Origin: an uncultured Clostridia bacterium
Lineage (GTDB): Bacteria > Bacillota > Clostridia > Oscillospirales > CAG-272
Assembly: GCA_944392615.1 (NCBI GenBank)
Contig: CALXXF010000005.1
Coordinates: 1-64,000, forward strand
DNA length: 64,000 nt
Direction of reading: 5' to 3'
Shown: positions 35,059 to 51,729 of the stretch, in pieces
Numbering within the stretch: the first letter of the stretch is position 1
Layout: each line of letters begins with the position of its first letter
Made by a program: the position numbers and the translations under genes
Notes under the pieces: generated by a model
Database searches by the model: none
Told to the model about the DNA's origin: nothing
The model's input: only the letters and a program-made list of their open reading frames with translations

Positions 35059-35074
35059 GCCGGGGCAGCGCGCT

Positions 35075-35440
35075 CTACTTCAGCGCCTTCAAAAATTTTT
35101 TGAGAGAATTTTTAAAAAGGATTTTTAACAATGGTTTTTAAAAATCTTTAAGGAAATTTTTTTCAAAAAGTTTTTGGATTTTTTAAAAAATTGAAAGTTT
35201 ATTTAAAGATTTTTGAAAGATTTTTTAAGAATTATAAAGGAATTTTGGAAAGAATTTTATTAAAATACAAATGTCAAAAACCTGAAAAACTTTTTTGTAA
35301 AATCGGACGAAAAAAAACGGTGGCTTGTATTCCTTATTGCAGGCATTATTTTCAATCGGTAAAAATCATTAAAAATATTAAAAATCATTATAAACAAATT
35401 TATAAACAAATTTAAAAAGTTTTCAGCCGCCTGATGCGGC
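35075..35440. repeat. AT-rich, low-complexity intergenic stretch
   Basis: About 370 bases made mainly of A- and T-runs joined by GGATTTTT, GGAAATTTT and TTTTGAAAG. It looks like heavily diverged short repeats. No gene is credible in it. It probably contains the promoter of thiI. Confidence 0.55.
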
Positions 35441-44749: not shown

Positions 44750-45000
44750 AATTTGTATGTCACTGTCTTTTCGGAAAAATTTCAGAAAATCCCTCCGGAC
44801 AGTTTTTCAGAAAGCGTTCTGAAAGCGTTTCCGAAGAGTCTTCCGAAAAAAACATAAAATATTTCCCGGAGTCTTTTAAAAATTCAAGAAAATTTTTCAG
44901 AGGTGTTTTTTCAGGAATTTTCAAAGAATATTTCTGCAGAATATTTCTGCAGAGCTTTTTGAAAAATCCTTTTCTGAAAATTCCGTTTTTCAGATCAGTA
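44750..45000. repeat. low-complexity A/T- and TTTCAGAAA-rich stretch
   Basis: Many overlapping variants of TTTTCAGAAA and TTTCCGAA fill this stretch, and GAATATTTCTGCA is directly duplicated near 44930. Sense-like frames in it have no ribosome site and a biased composition. I see no gene between 44547 and 45342. Confidence 0.55.
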
Positions 45001-45095
45001 CATTACAGACCTTTTGATCAGATAACCATGGCAAAGCCGGCGCGAATTGACGGCTGACAGCAAAAGACGCTATGAACCGAAAAGTTTCAGGGAAC

Positions 45096-45124
45096 TTGAA
45101 AAAGCTGAAAAAATGTGATATAAT
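45096..45124 (+). promoter_or_regulatory. promoter of the thioredoxin-reductase-like gene
   Basis: TTGAAA (45096-45101), 17 bases, TATAAT (45119-45124). It leaves a leader of about 215 bases. Confidence 0.8.
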
Positions 45125-45342
45125 CCAAAATTGAATAACGCGCAAGGACAGCAGCGTATACAGTAGCCCATGCATCAGAATATAGCATAACTCAAAATCG
45201 GTCGAAATACCATAGACAAAAAGTAAACATTGTCAACAAAACGCGAAATTTATCGGGGGAAATGGAGCTTTTTGCCTGTACGTAGCAATAAACGCCGCTT
45301 TTCTGGGAAAGTTTTGTAGTGAGACGACGGAGGAAATATTAT

Positions 45343-46260
45343 ATGGCTGACAATAGCGAAATCTGTGATGTCATCGTTGTGGGAACCGGTCCTGCCGGTA
45401 TATCCGCGGCTGTGAATCTCAAGATACTCGGAGCGGATTTTATTCTGTTCGGACATTCTTCATTGAGTGAAAAGGTTGAAAGGTCTGAGCTTATAAGAAA
45501 TTATCCCGGTTTGCCCGAAGTGACAGGTCCTGAACTTAACAGACTGTTTGCAGAGCACCTGTCGGCGGCGGGCGTTGAAATCCGGAATGAAAATGTTGTC
45601 GGAATATACGATATGGGGGACTACCTGTCTGTTTTGACGGATAAAAGAAGCGTTAACGCGTTTTCGGTAATAATCGCTTCCGGAGTACAGTCGCTCAAAC
45701 CGGCAAAGGGCGAGCTTGAATTTCTCGGCAGGGGCGTCTCGTACTGCGCCACCTGCGACGGAGAGCTGTACCGCGGAAAGAAAATAGCGGTGGTGTGCGA
45801 TTCGCCGGCCCTTGAGCACGAGGCGGTATATCTTTCCTCACTTGCAGGCTATATGTATTACTTTCCGGTCATGAAGGAGACGTCGGTCAAAGAGAGCGAC
45901 ACTCTAAGAATTGCCGGAGGAACGGTAAAAGAAGTTTCCGGGGGTATGAAGGTACAAAGCGTGATCACATCCTCCGGAGAGTCCATAGATGTGGACGGAG
46001 TTTTCTTCCTGAAGCGCTCGGTCTCTCCGTCTGCGCTGATGTTCGGTCTTGCCACTGACGAAGACGGTCACATAGTTGTCAGCAGGGATATGTCGGCTTC
46101 TGTCAGGGGATGCTTCGCCGCCGGCGACGTAACCGGAAGACCGTATCAGCTTGCCAAGGCGGCGGGAGAGGGCAACACGGCTGCTCACAGCGCTCTGGCA
46201 CTTGCAAAGCAGCGCCGTGAAGAACAAAAGCTTCAGAAAATAGAGCGTCAAAATACGTAA
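45343..46260 (+). CDS. thioredoxin-reductase-like flavoprotein lacking NADPH motifs
   Basis: 305 residues. FAD domain with GTGPAGISAA near the N-terminus and the C-terminal FAD motif GCFAAGDVTGRPYQLAKAAGEG. The redox pair is Cys135/Cys138 (YCATCDG). In the insert domain the usual GGGDSAxEEA is VCDSPALEHEA, and the HRR motif for the NADPH phosphate is missing (MYYFPVMKE). This matches the idea of ferredoxin-linked flavin thioredoxin reductases (FFTR) of Clostridia, which do not use NADPH. Electrons would then come from ferredoxin, such as that reduced by the PFOR of this window. It could also be another disulfide reductase. The start at 45343 follows GGAGGA. No thioredoxin gene is adjacent. 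Confidence 0.85.
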   Translation: MADNSEICDVIVVGTGPAGISAAVNLKILGADFILFGHSSLSEKVERSELIRNYPGLPEVTGPELNRLFAEHLSAAGVEIRNENVVGIYDMGDYLSVLTDKRSVNAFSVIIASGVQSLKPAKGELEFLGRGVSYCATCDGELYRGKKIAVVCDSPALEHEAVYLSSLAGYMYYFPVMKETSVKESDTLRIAGGTVKEVSGGMKVQSVITSSGESIDVDGVFFLKRSVSPSALMFGLATDEDGHIVVSRDMSASVRGCFAAGDVTGRPYQLAKAAGEGNTAAHSALALAKQRREEQKLQKIERQNT

Positions 46261-46339
46261 GAGCACAAAAGCGGCGTTTAAAGCGGCAGAGCGGGAGCCG
46301 GAAAAACTGCGGAGTGCCGGCGCGGCAGACCTTGCGTGG

Positions 46340-46385
46340 AAGAGCAGATACAGCGGAGCAGGAAGAGCAGATACAGCGGAGCTGA
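46340..46385. repeat. 23-bp direct repeat, 2 copies
   Basis: AGAGCAGATACAGCGGAGC occurs at 46341 and 46364. Further right, AATAGTGCxAGAGCC is duplicated near 46695 and 46714. The gap 46261-46771 otherwise shows no gene. Confidence 0.75.
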
Positions 46386-46771
46386 CAAAAACGCTTCTGC
46401 CTGTACTGCGCTCTGCATCCCATGCGGAGGAAACCGCGCATAAAACCGCGGCGGCGTGAGACATACCACACAGGCGAGTCATCAGCTTTTCACACAGACA
46501 TTGCCCCTCCGGAAAGACAGATCTGTAATTTCCGGCTTTAATACGGCATAGTATATCAGGACAGCTGCGCTGATGCGGCGGCGTGTGCAAACCGCGCCCC
46601 CGCTCACAAATGCACCACAATGCCCGTCGCCATACAAACTGCCAGCCGGCGACTGCCATGAGGCGACGGTCTGATTATCACAGGCGCTTGTGTGAATAGT
46701 GCAAGAGCCATAAATAGTGCGAGAGCCGTGAATAACGCGGGAATACAAGAGAATACAGAAGAGATGATCAG

Positions 46772-47950
46772 ATGATACTGAAACCTTATCAGAAAAGATG
46801 CTGGGCACAGATCGACCTCGACGCCGCAGCAGAAAATTTTGCAACTGTGAAAAAGGCGGCGGGTGAAAGCCAGGTTTGCTGCGTGGTGAAGGCAAACGCC
46901 TACGGTCATGGCGCAATCAGGCTGTCAAAGCTGTATGAGAGCCTCGGAGCGGGGTTTCTTGCCGTATCAAATATTGAGGAGGCGCTTCAGCTCCGGGATG
47001 CCGGAACGTCACTTCCGATACTCATTCTTGGCTATACCGACCCCGAATGTGCCGCCGTTCTTTGCGGCTCTGACATAACGCAGTGCGTGTTTTCTATCGA
47101 CTATGCACGCAGGCTTTCATCCTGCGCCGCGGCCGCCGGCGCGGTAGTAAAGGTCCACATAAAGCTCGATACGGGGATGGGACGTATAGGGTTTGAGTGC
47201 AGAGACGGCAGATTCGCCTCAGAGGAGGTGCTCTCTGTCTTTTGCCTTCCCGCCATTCAGGTTACCGGGATATTTACGCATTTCGCATCGGCAGATGAAG
47301 GAAATGGCGGAAAGGATTATACCATGTGCCAATTCTATTCTTTTACACATGCCGTAGACACTCTTGTCCGGCACGGCGCAGATCCCGGAATAAGACACTG
47401 TGCCAACAGCGCGGCAATATTTGATTATCCTCAGACGAGACTCGACATGGTACGCGCAGGAATAGTCTTATACGGGCTTGCTCCGTCGGATAAAATGAAT
47501 AATCTGCCGCATATCAAGCCGTGTCTTGAGCTGTTCAGCATAATAGACCACGTGAAGACGGTAAGAAAAAACGAGCCGGTAAGCTACGGAAGGGATTTTG
47601 TTGCCCTCCAGGACATGAAGGTGGCTACGATCCCGGTGGGCTATGCAGACGGGCTCTGGCGTTCAAATTACAGAAACGGGCTTTCAGTTTCTGTGGGTGA
47701 CGGAAGAGCGCCGGTGATAGGCCGGATATGCATGGATCAGTGTATGATAGATATAAGCGGAATAGACGGCGCGGGAGTCGGGTCTGTGGTTAAGCTTTAT
47801 GCTGCACACGGACCGAACTCGCTCGATTCGCTTGCAAAGGCAAATTCCACCATAAATTACGAGATAGCCTGTGCCGTCGGGCACAGGGTCCCGCGTGTCT
47901 ACATGCATGCCGGACGCGAGGAATCCGTTTCTGGTCTTCTTGAAATATAG
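46772..47950 (+). CDS. alr: alanine racemase
   Basis: 392 residues, normal length. It makes D-alanine for peptidoglycan. The PLP lysine is Lys40 in VVKANAYGHG. IKLDTGMGRIGF and the substrate-binding EPVSYGRDF with its catalytic Tyr follow, then PVGYADG and GRICMDQCMIDI in the C-terminal beta domain. The ribosome site before the ATG is weak (AGAAGAG). A long repeat array begins just after its stop. Confidence 0.96.
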   Translation: MILKPYQKRCWAQIDLDAAAENFATVKKAAGESQVCCVVKANAYGHGAIRLSKLYESLGAGFLAVSNIEEALQLRDAGTSLPILILGYTDPECAAVLCGSDITQCVFSIDYARRLSSCAAAAGAVVKVHIKLDTGMGRIGFECRDGRFASEEVLSVFCLPAIQVTGIFTHFASADEGNGGKDYTMCQFYSFTHAVDTLVRHGADPGIRHCANSAAIFDYPQTRLDMVRAGIVLYGLAPSDKMNNLPHIKPCLELFSIIDHVKTVRKNEPVSYGRDFVALQDMKVATIPVGYADGLWRSNYRNGLSVSVGDGRAPVIGRICMDQCMIDISGIDGAGVGSVVKLYAAHGPNSLDSLAKANSTINYEIACAVGHRVPRVYMHAGREESVSGLLEI

Positions 47951-47972
47951 AGCTGTATCGCCCGCCGCGCGC

Positions 47973-48513
47973 TATTTTTAAATAAAGAAAGACGTATATT
48001 CGCACATGCGGCATTTTTAAAAAAGGACGTATCTTCACACACGCCGGAAATTTTTAAAAAAGGACGTATCTTCAAACGCACTGAAATTTTTAAAAAAGGA
48101 CGTATCTTCACACACGCCGGAAATTTTTAAAAAAGGACGTATCTTCACACACGCCGGAAATTTTTAAAAAAGGACGTATCTTCACACACGCCGGAAATTT
48201 TTAAAAAAGGACGTATCTTCAAACGCACTGAAATTTTTAAAAAAGGACGTATCTTCAAACGCACTGAAATTTTTAAAAAAGGACGTATCTTCAAACGCAC
48301 TGAAAATTTTTAAAAAGACGTATCTTCAAACGTGCTGAAAATTTTTAAAAAGACGTATCTTCAAACGCACTGAAATTTTTTAAAAAGACGTATCTTCAAA
48401 CGCACTGAAATTTTTTAAAAAGACGTATTTTCAAACACGACGGAATTTTTTAAAAAGGACGTATCTTCAAACGTGCTGAAAGTTTTTTAAAAAGGACGTA
48501 TCTTTACACAACA
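47973..48513. repeat. 35-37 bp tandem repeat array, 15 units
   Basis: The core word GACGTAT occurs 15 times, at 47991, 48026, 48063, 48099, 48136, 48173, 48210, 48246, 48282, 48317, 48352, 48387, 48422, 48458 and 48495. Each unit has a nearly constant part of about 26 bases (AATTTTTAAAAAAGGACG followed by TATCTTCA) and a variable part of 9-10 bases, mostly CACACGCCGG or AACGCACTG. The types are clustered, as expected of expansion by slippage or unequal exchange. The array fills the whole gap between alr and the epimerase gene and ends about 10 bases before its ribosome site. Confidence 0.97.
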
Positions 48514-48533
48514 ATGTCCGGGAGGACTCAGCG

Positions 48534-49625
48534 ATGAAAAAGATAATGCTCCTTTTCGGCACGCGGCCCGAGGCCGTGAAAATGTGCCCTCTTGTCACAG
48601 AACTTAAAACCCGCAGCGGTATTGAGACCGTCGTGTGTGTAAGCGGTCAGCACAGACAAATGCTGACGGGTGTGCTTTCATCCTTCGGCGTTACAGCCGA
48701 CAGGAACATGCGCGTGATGAAAAATTCCCAGACCCTTTCCTCCCTTTTTGCAGCGGTACTTACCGGTACCCAAAAAGCCCTTGCCGATTTTCACCCTGAT
48801 GTCGTGGCGGTCCACGGAGACACGATCACCGCATTTGCAGGCGCGCTCGCATGCTTCTTTTCAGGAGTGCCGGTAGCTCATGTCGAAGCCGGTCTGCGTA
48901 CCGGCGACATGCGTTCTCCTTTTCCTGAAGAGCTTGACCGACGTGCAATAGCGCTCATGGCAAGCTATAATTTTTCCCCGACAGGGCAGGCCGCCGGCAA
49001 TCTCATAAGAGAAGGGGCCGCACCGGAGCGCGTGTGGGTGACGGGCAATACGGTCATAGACGCGCTCAGATATACGGTAAATGAAAATTATACCCACCCG
49101 GAACTCGAATGGGCATCGGGTGCTCCTCTCGTTCTCGTGACAGCGCACAGAAGGGAAAGTCTTGGCGACACTATGAGAGGAATGCTCAGAGCGGTGCGCC
49201 GCGTCGCCCTTGAAAGACCATTTGTAAGGATATTGTTTCCCGTACATATGAATCCACTTGTAAGAAAAGCGGCTGAGGAAATTCTCGGAGACCTGCCTTC
49301 CGTGCACCTCACCGGTCCCCTTGAGGTCAGGGATTTTCACAACATTCTGGCGCGCGCAAGAATTGTGCTTACAGATTCGGGAGGGGTACAGGAGGAAGCC
49401 GCCGCTCTCGGAAAACCCACGCTGGTGATGAGGGATGAAACCGAACGTCCGGAGGGGGTTGACGCCGGAGTACTGCGTGCGGTCGGAACAGACGAAAACC
49501 GGATATACCTGAATTTTATGAAGCTTCTCGATGACCCTCAGGAATATTCCTCTATGGCGCGCCCCTGCGATTCCTACGGGGACGGTTTTGCTTGCAGAAG
49601 AATAGCGGATATACTCGCGATCTGA
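48534..49625 (+). CDS. wecB: UDP-N-acetylglucosamine 2-epimerase (non-hydrolysing)
   Basis: 363 residues. It interconverts UDP-GlcNAc and UDP-ManNAc, a precursor of wall teichoic acid linkage units or capsule. Signature GTRPEAVKMCPLV at the start, VHGDTITAFAGALA, HVEAGLRTGDMRSPFPEE and DSGGVQEEAAALGKPTLVMRDETERPEG are all present. The substrate-binding residues Asp, Glu and His of the family lie in these segments. GGGAGGA precedes the ATG. It is followed 232 bases later by a UDP-sugar dehydrogenase, which would fit a ManNAc-uronate or other uronate pathway. Confidence 0.95.
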   Translation: MKKIMLLFGTRPEAVKMCPLVTELKTRSGIETVVCVSGQHRQMLTGVLSSFGVTADRNMRVMKNSQTLSSLFAAVLTGTQKALADFHPDVVAVHGDTITAFAGALACFFSGVPVAHVEAGLRTGDMRSPFPEELDRRAIALMASYNFSPTGQAAGNLIREGAAPERVWVTGNTVIDALRYTVNENYTHPELEWASGAPLVLVTAHRRESLGDTMRGMLRAVRRVALERPFVRILFPVHMNPLVRKAAEEILGDLPSVHLTGPLEVRDFHNILARARIVLTDSGGVQEEAAALGKPTLVMRDETERPEGVDAGVLRAVGTDENRIYLNFMKLLDDPQEYSSMARPCDSYGDGFACRRIADILAI

Positions 49626-49642
49626 ATCCGCACAGAGGGTCA

Positions 49643-49712
49643 GGGTACACGCACCGTTACAAAAGGGGTACACGTACCGTTACAAAGGGGGGGTACACGT
49701 ACCGGTACAGAG
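49643..49712. repeat. 22-24 bp tandem repeat, 3 copies
   Basis: GGGTACACGcACCGTTACAAA and variants start at about 49642, 49664 and 49688, between the epimerase and the dehydrogenase genes. The units include the short palindrome GGTACACGTACC-like words. Confidence 0.8.
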
Positions 49713-49857
49713 GGGCATGGTATGCGCACCCATACCATGTATACACCGAGCAAAGCCGTGCTGAGTGGGCGGCAGCCGACAGTGCGCCGAACATATTCAG
49801 CATATTAGTAAAACGTATGTACAGAAAGAATAAAGTTGCAGACAAAGGAGTGTTTGA

Positions 49858-51042
49858 ATGAAGATTGCGATTGCAGGGACAGGATATGTCGGGCTTTCTG
49901 TTGCAGTGCTTCTGGCACAGTATAACGACGTCACTGCAGTGGACATCCTTCCGGAAAAGGTTGAGCTGATAAACAAAGGGAAATCACCGATAAAAGACAG
50001 GGAAATAGAGGAATTTCTTGCTTCCGGGCGGCTTTCGCTCACTGCCACTTCCGACGACGGCGAGGCTTACACAGGCGCTGATTTTGTCGTCATATCCACA
50101 CCGACAGATTACGACACGGAGCTGAACTGCTTTGACACGTCCTCTGTAGAGTCGGTTATAGACAGGGTGATGCTGTTCAATCCCGACGCGGTTATGGTGG
50201 TGAAATCGACCGTCCCCGTAGGATTCACCGAGAGCATCCGCAGAAAAAAAGGATGTAAGAAAATATTGTTCAGTCCTGAGTTTCTGCGCGAGGGCAGAGC
50301 GCTTTACGACAACCTCCATCCAAGTCGCATAATAGTCGGATATCCGGATAAAGACGCCGCTCTTTCCGGTCCTGCTGAGATTTTTGCCGGACTTCTTGCG
50401 CAGGGGGCGGCGGACGAAAATCCTGAGATACGCATAATGAACGCGACAGAGGCGGAAGCTGTAAAGCTGTTTGCAAATACCTATCTTGCTCTCAGAGTGT
50501 CCTTCTTCAACGAGCTGGATACTTACGCCGCGGTGAGGGGGCTCGATTCCGGGGCAATAATAGAAGGAGTGGGGCTTGACCCCCGCATCGGTATGCATTA
50601 CAACAATCCTTCTTTCGGCTACGGCGGTTATTGTCTTCCCAAGGATACAAAGCAGCTTCTTGCAAACTACAGAGACGTTCCGCAGAATATAATATCTGCC
50701 ATAGTTTCGGCAAACAGCACCCGCAAGGACTTCATAGCAGAGCAGGTGCTCGCGCGTCATCCGCGCGTGGTAGGGGTTTACCGGCTGACAATGAAGGAGG
50801 GCAGCGACAACTTCCGTCAGAGCTCTGTACAGGGAGTCATGAAGAGGATAAAGGAAAAAGGCGCGGAGGTAATAATATATGAGCCGGTGCTCAGGCAGGA
50901 TGCCTTTATGGGCAGCCGGGTCGTGCGCGATCTTTCGGAATTCAAAAGGCTCTCCGACGTCATAATAGCGAACAGATACAACGAGGAAATAAAGGACTGC
51001 ATGGACAAGGTGTACACAAGGGATATTTATTACAGAGACTGA
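49858..51042 (+). CDS. UDP-glucose/UDP-ManNAc-type sugar dehydrogenase
   Basis: 394 residues, short-form UDP-sugar dehydrogenase that oxidises a UDP-hexose to the uronate with two NAD. The Rossmann motif [10 protein letters not shown] is at residues 7-16. [18 protein letters not shown], the catalytic-loop [14 protein letters not shown] and the nucleophile Cys259 in [12 protein letters not shown] are seen. The C-terminal UDP-binding domain is present. The FGYGGYC context and length are like UDP-glucose dehydrogenases from clostridial and Klebsiella lineages. Its position after the UDP-GlcNAc epimerase also allows UDP-ManNAc as substrate. AAAGGAG precedes the ATG by 7 bases. Confidence 0.93.
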
Positions 51043-51280
51043 AAGCGGGAACTGAAACCGAGTCTGAAAGCCGGGACTGAAGGCTGAGCGGCGCGTATCG
51101 TCTGCCCGGCACCGTCTTCTGTTCTTCTTTTTGAAAGTTTTGCTCCTGAAAACGTATACCCCGGATAGATCAATAAAATCTGGATAAGCAGAGAAGAGGG
51201 CAAGACCAAAGCTGACACGAAAACAAAAAACACATACAAAAGGACGAAAAACAAAAAAACCGGAAAAACCAAAAAACGAA

Positions 51281-51320
51281 AAAACCGGAAGACCGCAAAA
51301 AGCGGACCTCCGGTTTTTTT
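51281..51320 (-). terminator. terminator of tRNA-Ala
   Basis: On the minus strand AAACCGGA, inner GTCCGC and a TTTTT loop with GCGGTC, then TCCGGTTTTTTCG. The bases 51180-51280 before it are A-rich with repeated AAAACCGGAAAAAC-like words. Confidence 0.85.
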
Positions 51321-51338
51321 CAGCGTTTTCAGCTTTTT

Positions 51339-51414
<76 letters not shown>

Positions 51415-51443
51415 GTAAAACTGTACGCGGCGCTGACTTACAG

Positions 51444-51472
51444 AGTATAACACAGAATGCGCTGTTTGTCAA
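51444..51472 (-). promoter_or_regulatory. consensus promoter of tRNA-Ala
   Basis: On the minus strand TTGACA (51472-51467), 17 bases, TATACT (51449-51444), 30 bases before the tRNA. The rest of 51473-51729 holds no gene. Confidence 0.88.
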
Positions 51473-51729
51473 GTGCCTTTTTTCTGTTTGTCAGGTGCTT
51501 TTTTTGATATGAGCGGAACGGGCGGATAAATATGCCTCTGAAAGCCAAGTGCTTTACACGGCGGCGCGCCCGGCTAAAACAGCGTTTTTTATCTTGACTC
51601 CGGTACCCTGCAATATCGCAAAACTCCTTGACGAGGCGCGCGATTTATGGTACAATACGCTGATGTAATATTTTTTCCTGACGTTGATGTGCGGCTATAT
51701 GCGGCAACGCTCTCTGCCGCATTCTGGAG

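Follow-up and report, generated by a model that had tools for sequence, protein, structure and literature searches.

A tandem array of 35- to 37-base units in the leader of wecB, most likely an ordinary species-specific minisatellite in a repeat-rich Clostridia genome

The stretch analysed here (the window; 64,000 nucleotides of contig CALXXF010000005.1 from an uncultured Clostridia bacterium) carries on its forward strand a gene for alanine racemase (alr, 46772..47950; Pfam PF01168, E 2e-63, and PF00842, E 4e-38). Downstream of it lie wecB, encoding UDP-N-acetylglucosamine 2-epimerase (48534..49625, with its ATG at 48534; PF02350, E 8e-104), and, as the next gene on the same strand, a UDP-sugar dehydrogenase gene of the UDPG/MGDP family (49858..51042; PF03721, PF00984 and PF03720). 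The gap of 583 bases between the alr stop at 47950 and the wecB start at 48534 is mostly taken up by a tandem array, which lies outside coding sequence and extends up to the wecB ribosome site, the likely site being GGGAGG at 48519..48524 on the + strand, as judged from its sequence and position. The first-pass annotation had the array occupy the entire gap and end next to the ribosome site. The motif GACGTAT, described there as recurring 15 times at steps of 35-37 bases, was indeed found in 15 copies across 47991-48495 (starting at 47991, 48026, 48063, 48099, 48136, 48173, 48210, 48246, 48282, 48317, 48352, 48387, 48422, 48458 and 48495, i.e. with steps of 35, 37, 36, 37, 37, 37, 36, 36, 35, 35, 35, 35, 36 and 37 bases). 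TRF placed the array at 48013-48504 on the + strand, with a period of about 36, 13.6 copies and 92% matches; its score of 698 was the top one among the 39 TRF rows of the window, and it was the strongest non-coding array in the sampled DNA. The longest exact repeat inside the array is 102 bases, so that the copy number is assembly-dependent.

Each unit consists of a T/A tract (TTTTTAAAAAA), the block GGACGTATCTTCA and a variable part of 9-10 bases. When aligned over 48013..48504, the units read T5-6 A5-6 (G)GACGTATCTTCA followed by the 9-10 variable bases, which come in the types CACACGCCGG, AACGCACTG, AACGTGCTG and AACACGACGG. The most divergent units are the first one and the partial last one: the left edge (47973..48012, + strand) holds a degenerate first unit (GACGTATATTCGCACATGCGGC) containing the GACGTAT at 47991, and at the right edge (48495..48513, + strand) a truncated last unit (GACGTATCTTTACACAACA) runs into the wecB translation start region. 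A coding repeat was excluded because no reading frame persists through steps of 35, 36 and 37. Constant and variable parts that alternate at a regular spacing are also a feature of CRISPR; however, CRISPR repeats are exact and separated by unique spacers of about 25-40 bases, whereas the variable parts found here measure 9-10 bases and belong to a few recurring types, which, together with the steps of 35-37, ruled out this identification.

The clustering of like unit types had been read as a sign of local expansion, and this was borne out by a permutation test. The mean edit distance between neighbouring units was 3.0, compared to 4.8 when the unit order was permuted (P about 0.001), and a similar difference was found with the interior units alone (2.75 versus 4.18, P 0.008). 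As neighbours are more alike than expected by chance, local duplication of units in the wecB-leader array is supported.

We looked for the array elsewhere in the genome, in relatives and in mobile elements. The search for other arrays with the same 26-base core, proposed by the first-pass annotation, returned the core at the wecB leader only: no other copy turned up in the genome when as many as 2 mismatches were allowed over 18 bases, and BLAST gave the same result. Among 395 genomes of the family, more than 2 near-matches per strand to the core were found in the own genome only, the others having at most 2 scattered ones and no array. A search with WecB gave matches in 28 of 39 genomes (own genome included), some of them distant paralogues. 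At the WecB loci inspected in relatives, no comparable array was present within 1.5 kb upstream, where there were just a few short or unrelated repeats, and alr was not adjacent; the downstream side of alr in 19 relatives also showed no comparable array. The absence of conservation at orthologous loci, which the first-pass annotation had itself named as an argument against its reading, was therefore what we observed at the loci inspected. A mobile or viral origin was dismissed, since there was no exact match to the 24-base core in viral contigs and no plasmid match. In one relative of the same genus (G002; L060 and L145), WecB and Alr each contained one in-frame TAG within conserved sequence, and of 77 long open frames in a 100-kb sample just 2 ended in TAG. 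This may reflect read-through or recoding, or else sequence errors.

The wecB-leader array is one of many in its genome. In about 907 kb of sampled stretches, which represent under half of the 2 Mb genome, TRF detected 181 arrays, i.e. about 20 tandem arrays per 100 kb. Of these, 116 were intergenic (a second large array on C7, described below, being counted as such), covering 5% of the non-coding bases. Their periods ranged from 14 to 84 and their sequences were mostly unrelated. About 30% of the gaps of at least 200 bases contained an array. When 107 arrays were assigned to 435 gaps, co-directional, divergent and convergent gaps held 68, 18 and 21 of them, respectively, compared to 66, 22 and 19 expected by length, these counts being approximate as the gene calls came from a simple ORF method; there was no sign of a preference for promoter-bearing gaps. 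The density of arrays varied within the family (7 and 16 per 100 kb in same-genus samples, almost none in G013 and 18 per 100 kb in G014), and assembly quality may account for part of the difference, the relatives often being fragmented MAGs in which repeats may be lost. Loss of mismatch repair as the cause of the repeat surplus was rejected, on the MutS side, since the genome encodes a MutS1 over the cut-off and a second MutS-like protein.

The second large array (C7:34181-34633, corresponding to L082:14181-14633) lies between dtd and a radical-SAM gene, and comprises 12.7 copies of a 36-base unit, TTTTTTCAAAAAGGCTTCGCCGTCATACAGCTTGCG. It and the wecB-leader array are the two largest, and the only sequence common to both is the T/A tract TTTTTTNAAAAAGG. 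No neighbour effect was detected among the units of the C7 array (P 0.46 at lag 1 and 0.17 at lag 3). Its antisense strand is open over 140 codons with a 12-residue repeat (DGEAFLKKRKLY), which probably follows from 36 being a multiple of 3. Two other T/A-tract arrays with a 36-base unit, each of about 3 copies and unrelated in sequence, were found on C11 (L163:2735-2871), between two minus-strand genes, and on C13 (L164:2859-2964), immediately after the pckA stop; the latter gap is convergent and would not be expected to contain a promoter. When three TTTTNAAAA motifs were used as a pattern, there were 57 matches in the own genome versus 0 for a reversed control; of the 117 genomes searched, 16 had any match, with at most 4 in genomes other than the own one. 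Besides the wecB-leader array, the matches fell in C7:34181-34633, C11, C13, C14 and a leader at C5:35109. A period of 36-37 was shared by 9 of the 29 arrays with periods of 25-50, again with different sequences (scan P 0.08), and the control genome G014, with few arrays, had no such peak at 36-37. A preferred period of 36-37 bases is thus suggestive only.

Minisatellites are tandem repeats with a unit of more than 10 bases, thought to change through slippage or recombination (PMC3899988). The array has the structure of one, with head-to-tail units of more than 10 bases, an intergenic position and like units next to each other. It also shares unit variants, degenerate ends, local expansion and its occurrence as one of many such loci in its genome with bacterial intergenic minisatellites and VNTRs, such as the mycobacterial MIRU-VNTR, with the difference that a VNTR is defined by copy-number variation between strains, whereas this array is known here from one genome. 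MIRUs are one dispersed family, while the arrays of the present genome mostly differ in sequence. We consider it likely that the wecB-leader array is a species-specific intergenic minisatellite with, probably, no dedicated function. An AT-rich stretch of the alr-wecB gap flanked by TTTTTAAAAA tracts would have been duplicated in tandem, after which slippage during replication, or unequal recombination among the near-identical units, would have expanded the array and made its units alike. The edges would have remained degenerate while interior unit types spread locally, and the array would be part of the genome-wide surplus of this species. We infer both this mechanism and the absence of function from the array itself, the clustering of its units, the fact that it is unique and missing from the relatives inspected, and the presence of more than 100 mostly unrelated arrays without orientation preference. 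The fact that these arrays are placed regardless of promoters indicates that the most likely explanation is the ordinary expansion of a repeat and not a dedicated switch. The points against a neutral reading are that this is the strongest non-coding array sampled, that it fills a gene leader, that it ends at the ribosome site and that a 36-37 base unit recurs in several arrays of unlike sequence. The array is thus real and striking, but most likely an ordinary minisatellite in a repeat-rich genome. Taken alone it matters little, except as a possible strain marker for the species and as a warning that a leader may be striking without being functional.

The first-pass annotation had proposed a length-variable expression switch, in which slippage would alter the copy number and thereby promoter strength, leader length or spacing, making wecB, an envelope-sugar gene, phase-variable. 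The position of the array directly before wecB and the near-identity of its units, with signs of local duplication, are in favor of such a modulator, as is a precedent in M. tuberculosis, in which promoter repeats of 54-58 bp preceding cysG and lpdA, as well as a repeat in the dop promoter, vary within populations and have been proposed to change expression (PMC12817950). Those repeats resemble the array in having a unit of tens of bases repeated just upstream of a gene, but they are promoter elements with an observed change in copy number, whereas a consensus scan of 47900-48600 for sigma-70 sites identified no promoter-like sequence within the array or behind it. Over 45000-51500, the + strand matched best at TTGAAA-17-TATAAT with a TG (45096-45124), upstream of a trxB-like gene; this comes from the consensus scan only and is not evidence of function. 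The array may therefore be internal to an operon. With a + strand terminator-like site at 51459, found in the scan of the same region, this would fit a single trxB-alr-wecB-dehydrogenase transcript, consensus matches being weak evidence. Of the claim that copy number must set promoter or leader length, what is supported is that copy number, by geometry, sets the alr-wecB distance; an effect of array length on wecB expression is possible. The uniqueness of the core, the lack of such an array at the wecB loci inspected in relatives and the indifference of more than 100 mostly unrelated arrays to gaps able to hold promoters also weigh against a switch, which we regard as rather unlikely.

The recurrence of a 36-37 base unit in several arrays, and the TTTTTTNAAAAAGG common to the two largest, hint at a common constraint or generating mechanism. 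In its strong form, a process shared across this species would build intergenic arrays that differ in sequence and favor a unit of 36-37 bases (about 3.5 helical turns), seeded by T/A tracts, of which the wecB and post-dtd arrays would be the largest products and would serve as adjustable spacers or leaders. We think this improbable. The possible 36-37 base preference is the loose end worth keeping: a genome of 2 Mb in which every 100 kb holds about 20 tandem arrays, some of which have a 36-37 base unit, could help in asking how unit size is determined in bacterial minisatellites.

It had also been suggested that the array binds protein; in that case a dedicated or nucleoid protein would recognise the constant core, with the variable part acting as a spacer. 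By eye the core of about 26 bases varies less than the spacer of 9-10 bases, and the C7 array, though otherwise unrelated, is laid out similarly, with a T/A tract followed by a constant and a variable block. The split is visible, but an unbiased run test gave it no significance (P 0.61 for the wecB-leader array and 0.07 for the C7 array), the T/A tract is the only part that the two have in common, and the core is confined to one locus. Nor did the observation that A-tracts recur about every 3.4 helical turns translate into phasing: the T5A5 centres were out of helical phase (R 0.03-0.11 for helical repeats of 10.3-10.7, compared to about 0.24 for random positions), which means that no coherent, summed bend is formed and speaks against a platform of bent DNA. 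A protein-binding array is accordingly very improbable.

A structured RNA was not supported by the folding of the + strand, which was no better than that of shuffles (z +1.1; the C7 array did worse than its own shuffles, z +2.4), or by the weak structure of the minus strand (z -1.8), and Rfam had no match to the array. That the array is a transcribed element on either strand, for instance a series of weak minus-strand terminators, scarcely deserves credence: four units of the CACACGCCGG type match a terminator pattern on that strand (4 versus 0.9 expected), which counts in its favor together with the fold score of that strand, but the stems are short and absent from the other unit types, and there is no evident minus-strand gene that would read into the array.

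Two other repeat-rich sites were noted. In the window, a very AT-rich leader with repeated TTTTTAAAAA tracts (35060-35420) precedes a thiI-like gene; the GC content of the genome is about 47-50%. On C6 (L081:7808-9097), an 18-base repeat is present in about 72 copies, and one minus-strand frame through it reads as a long collagen-like GPTGAT repeat protein.
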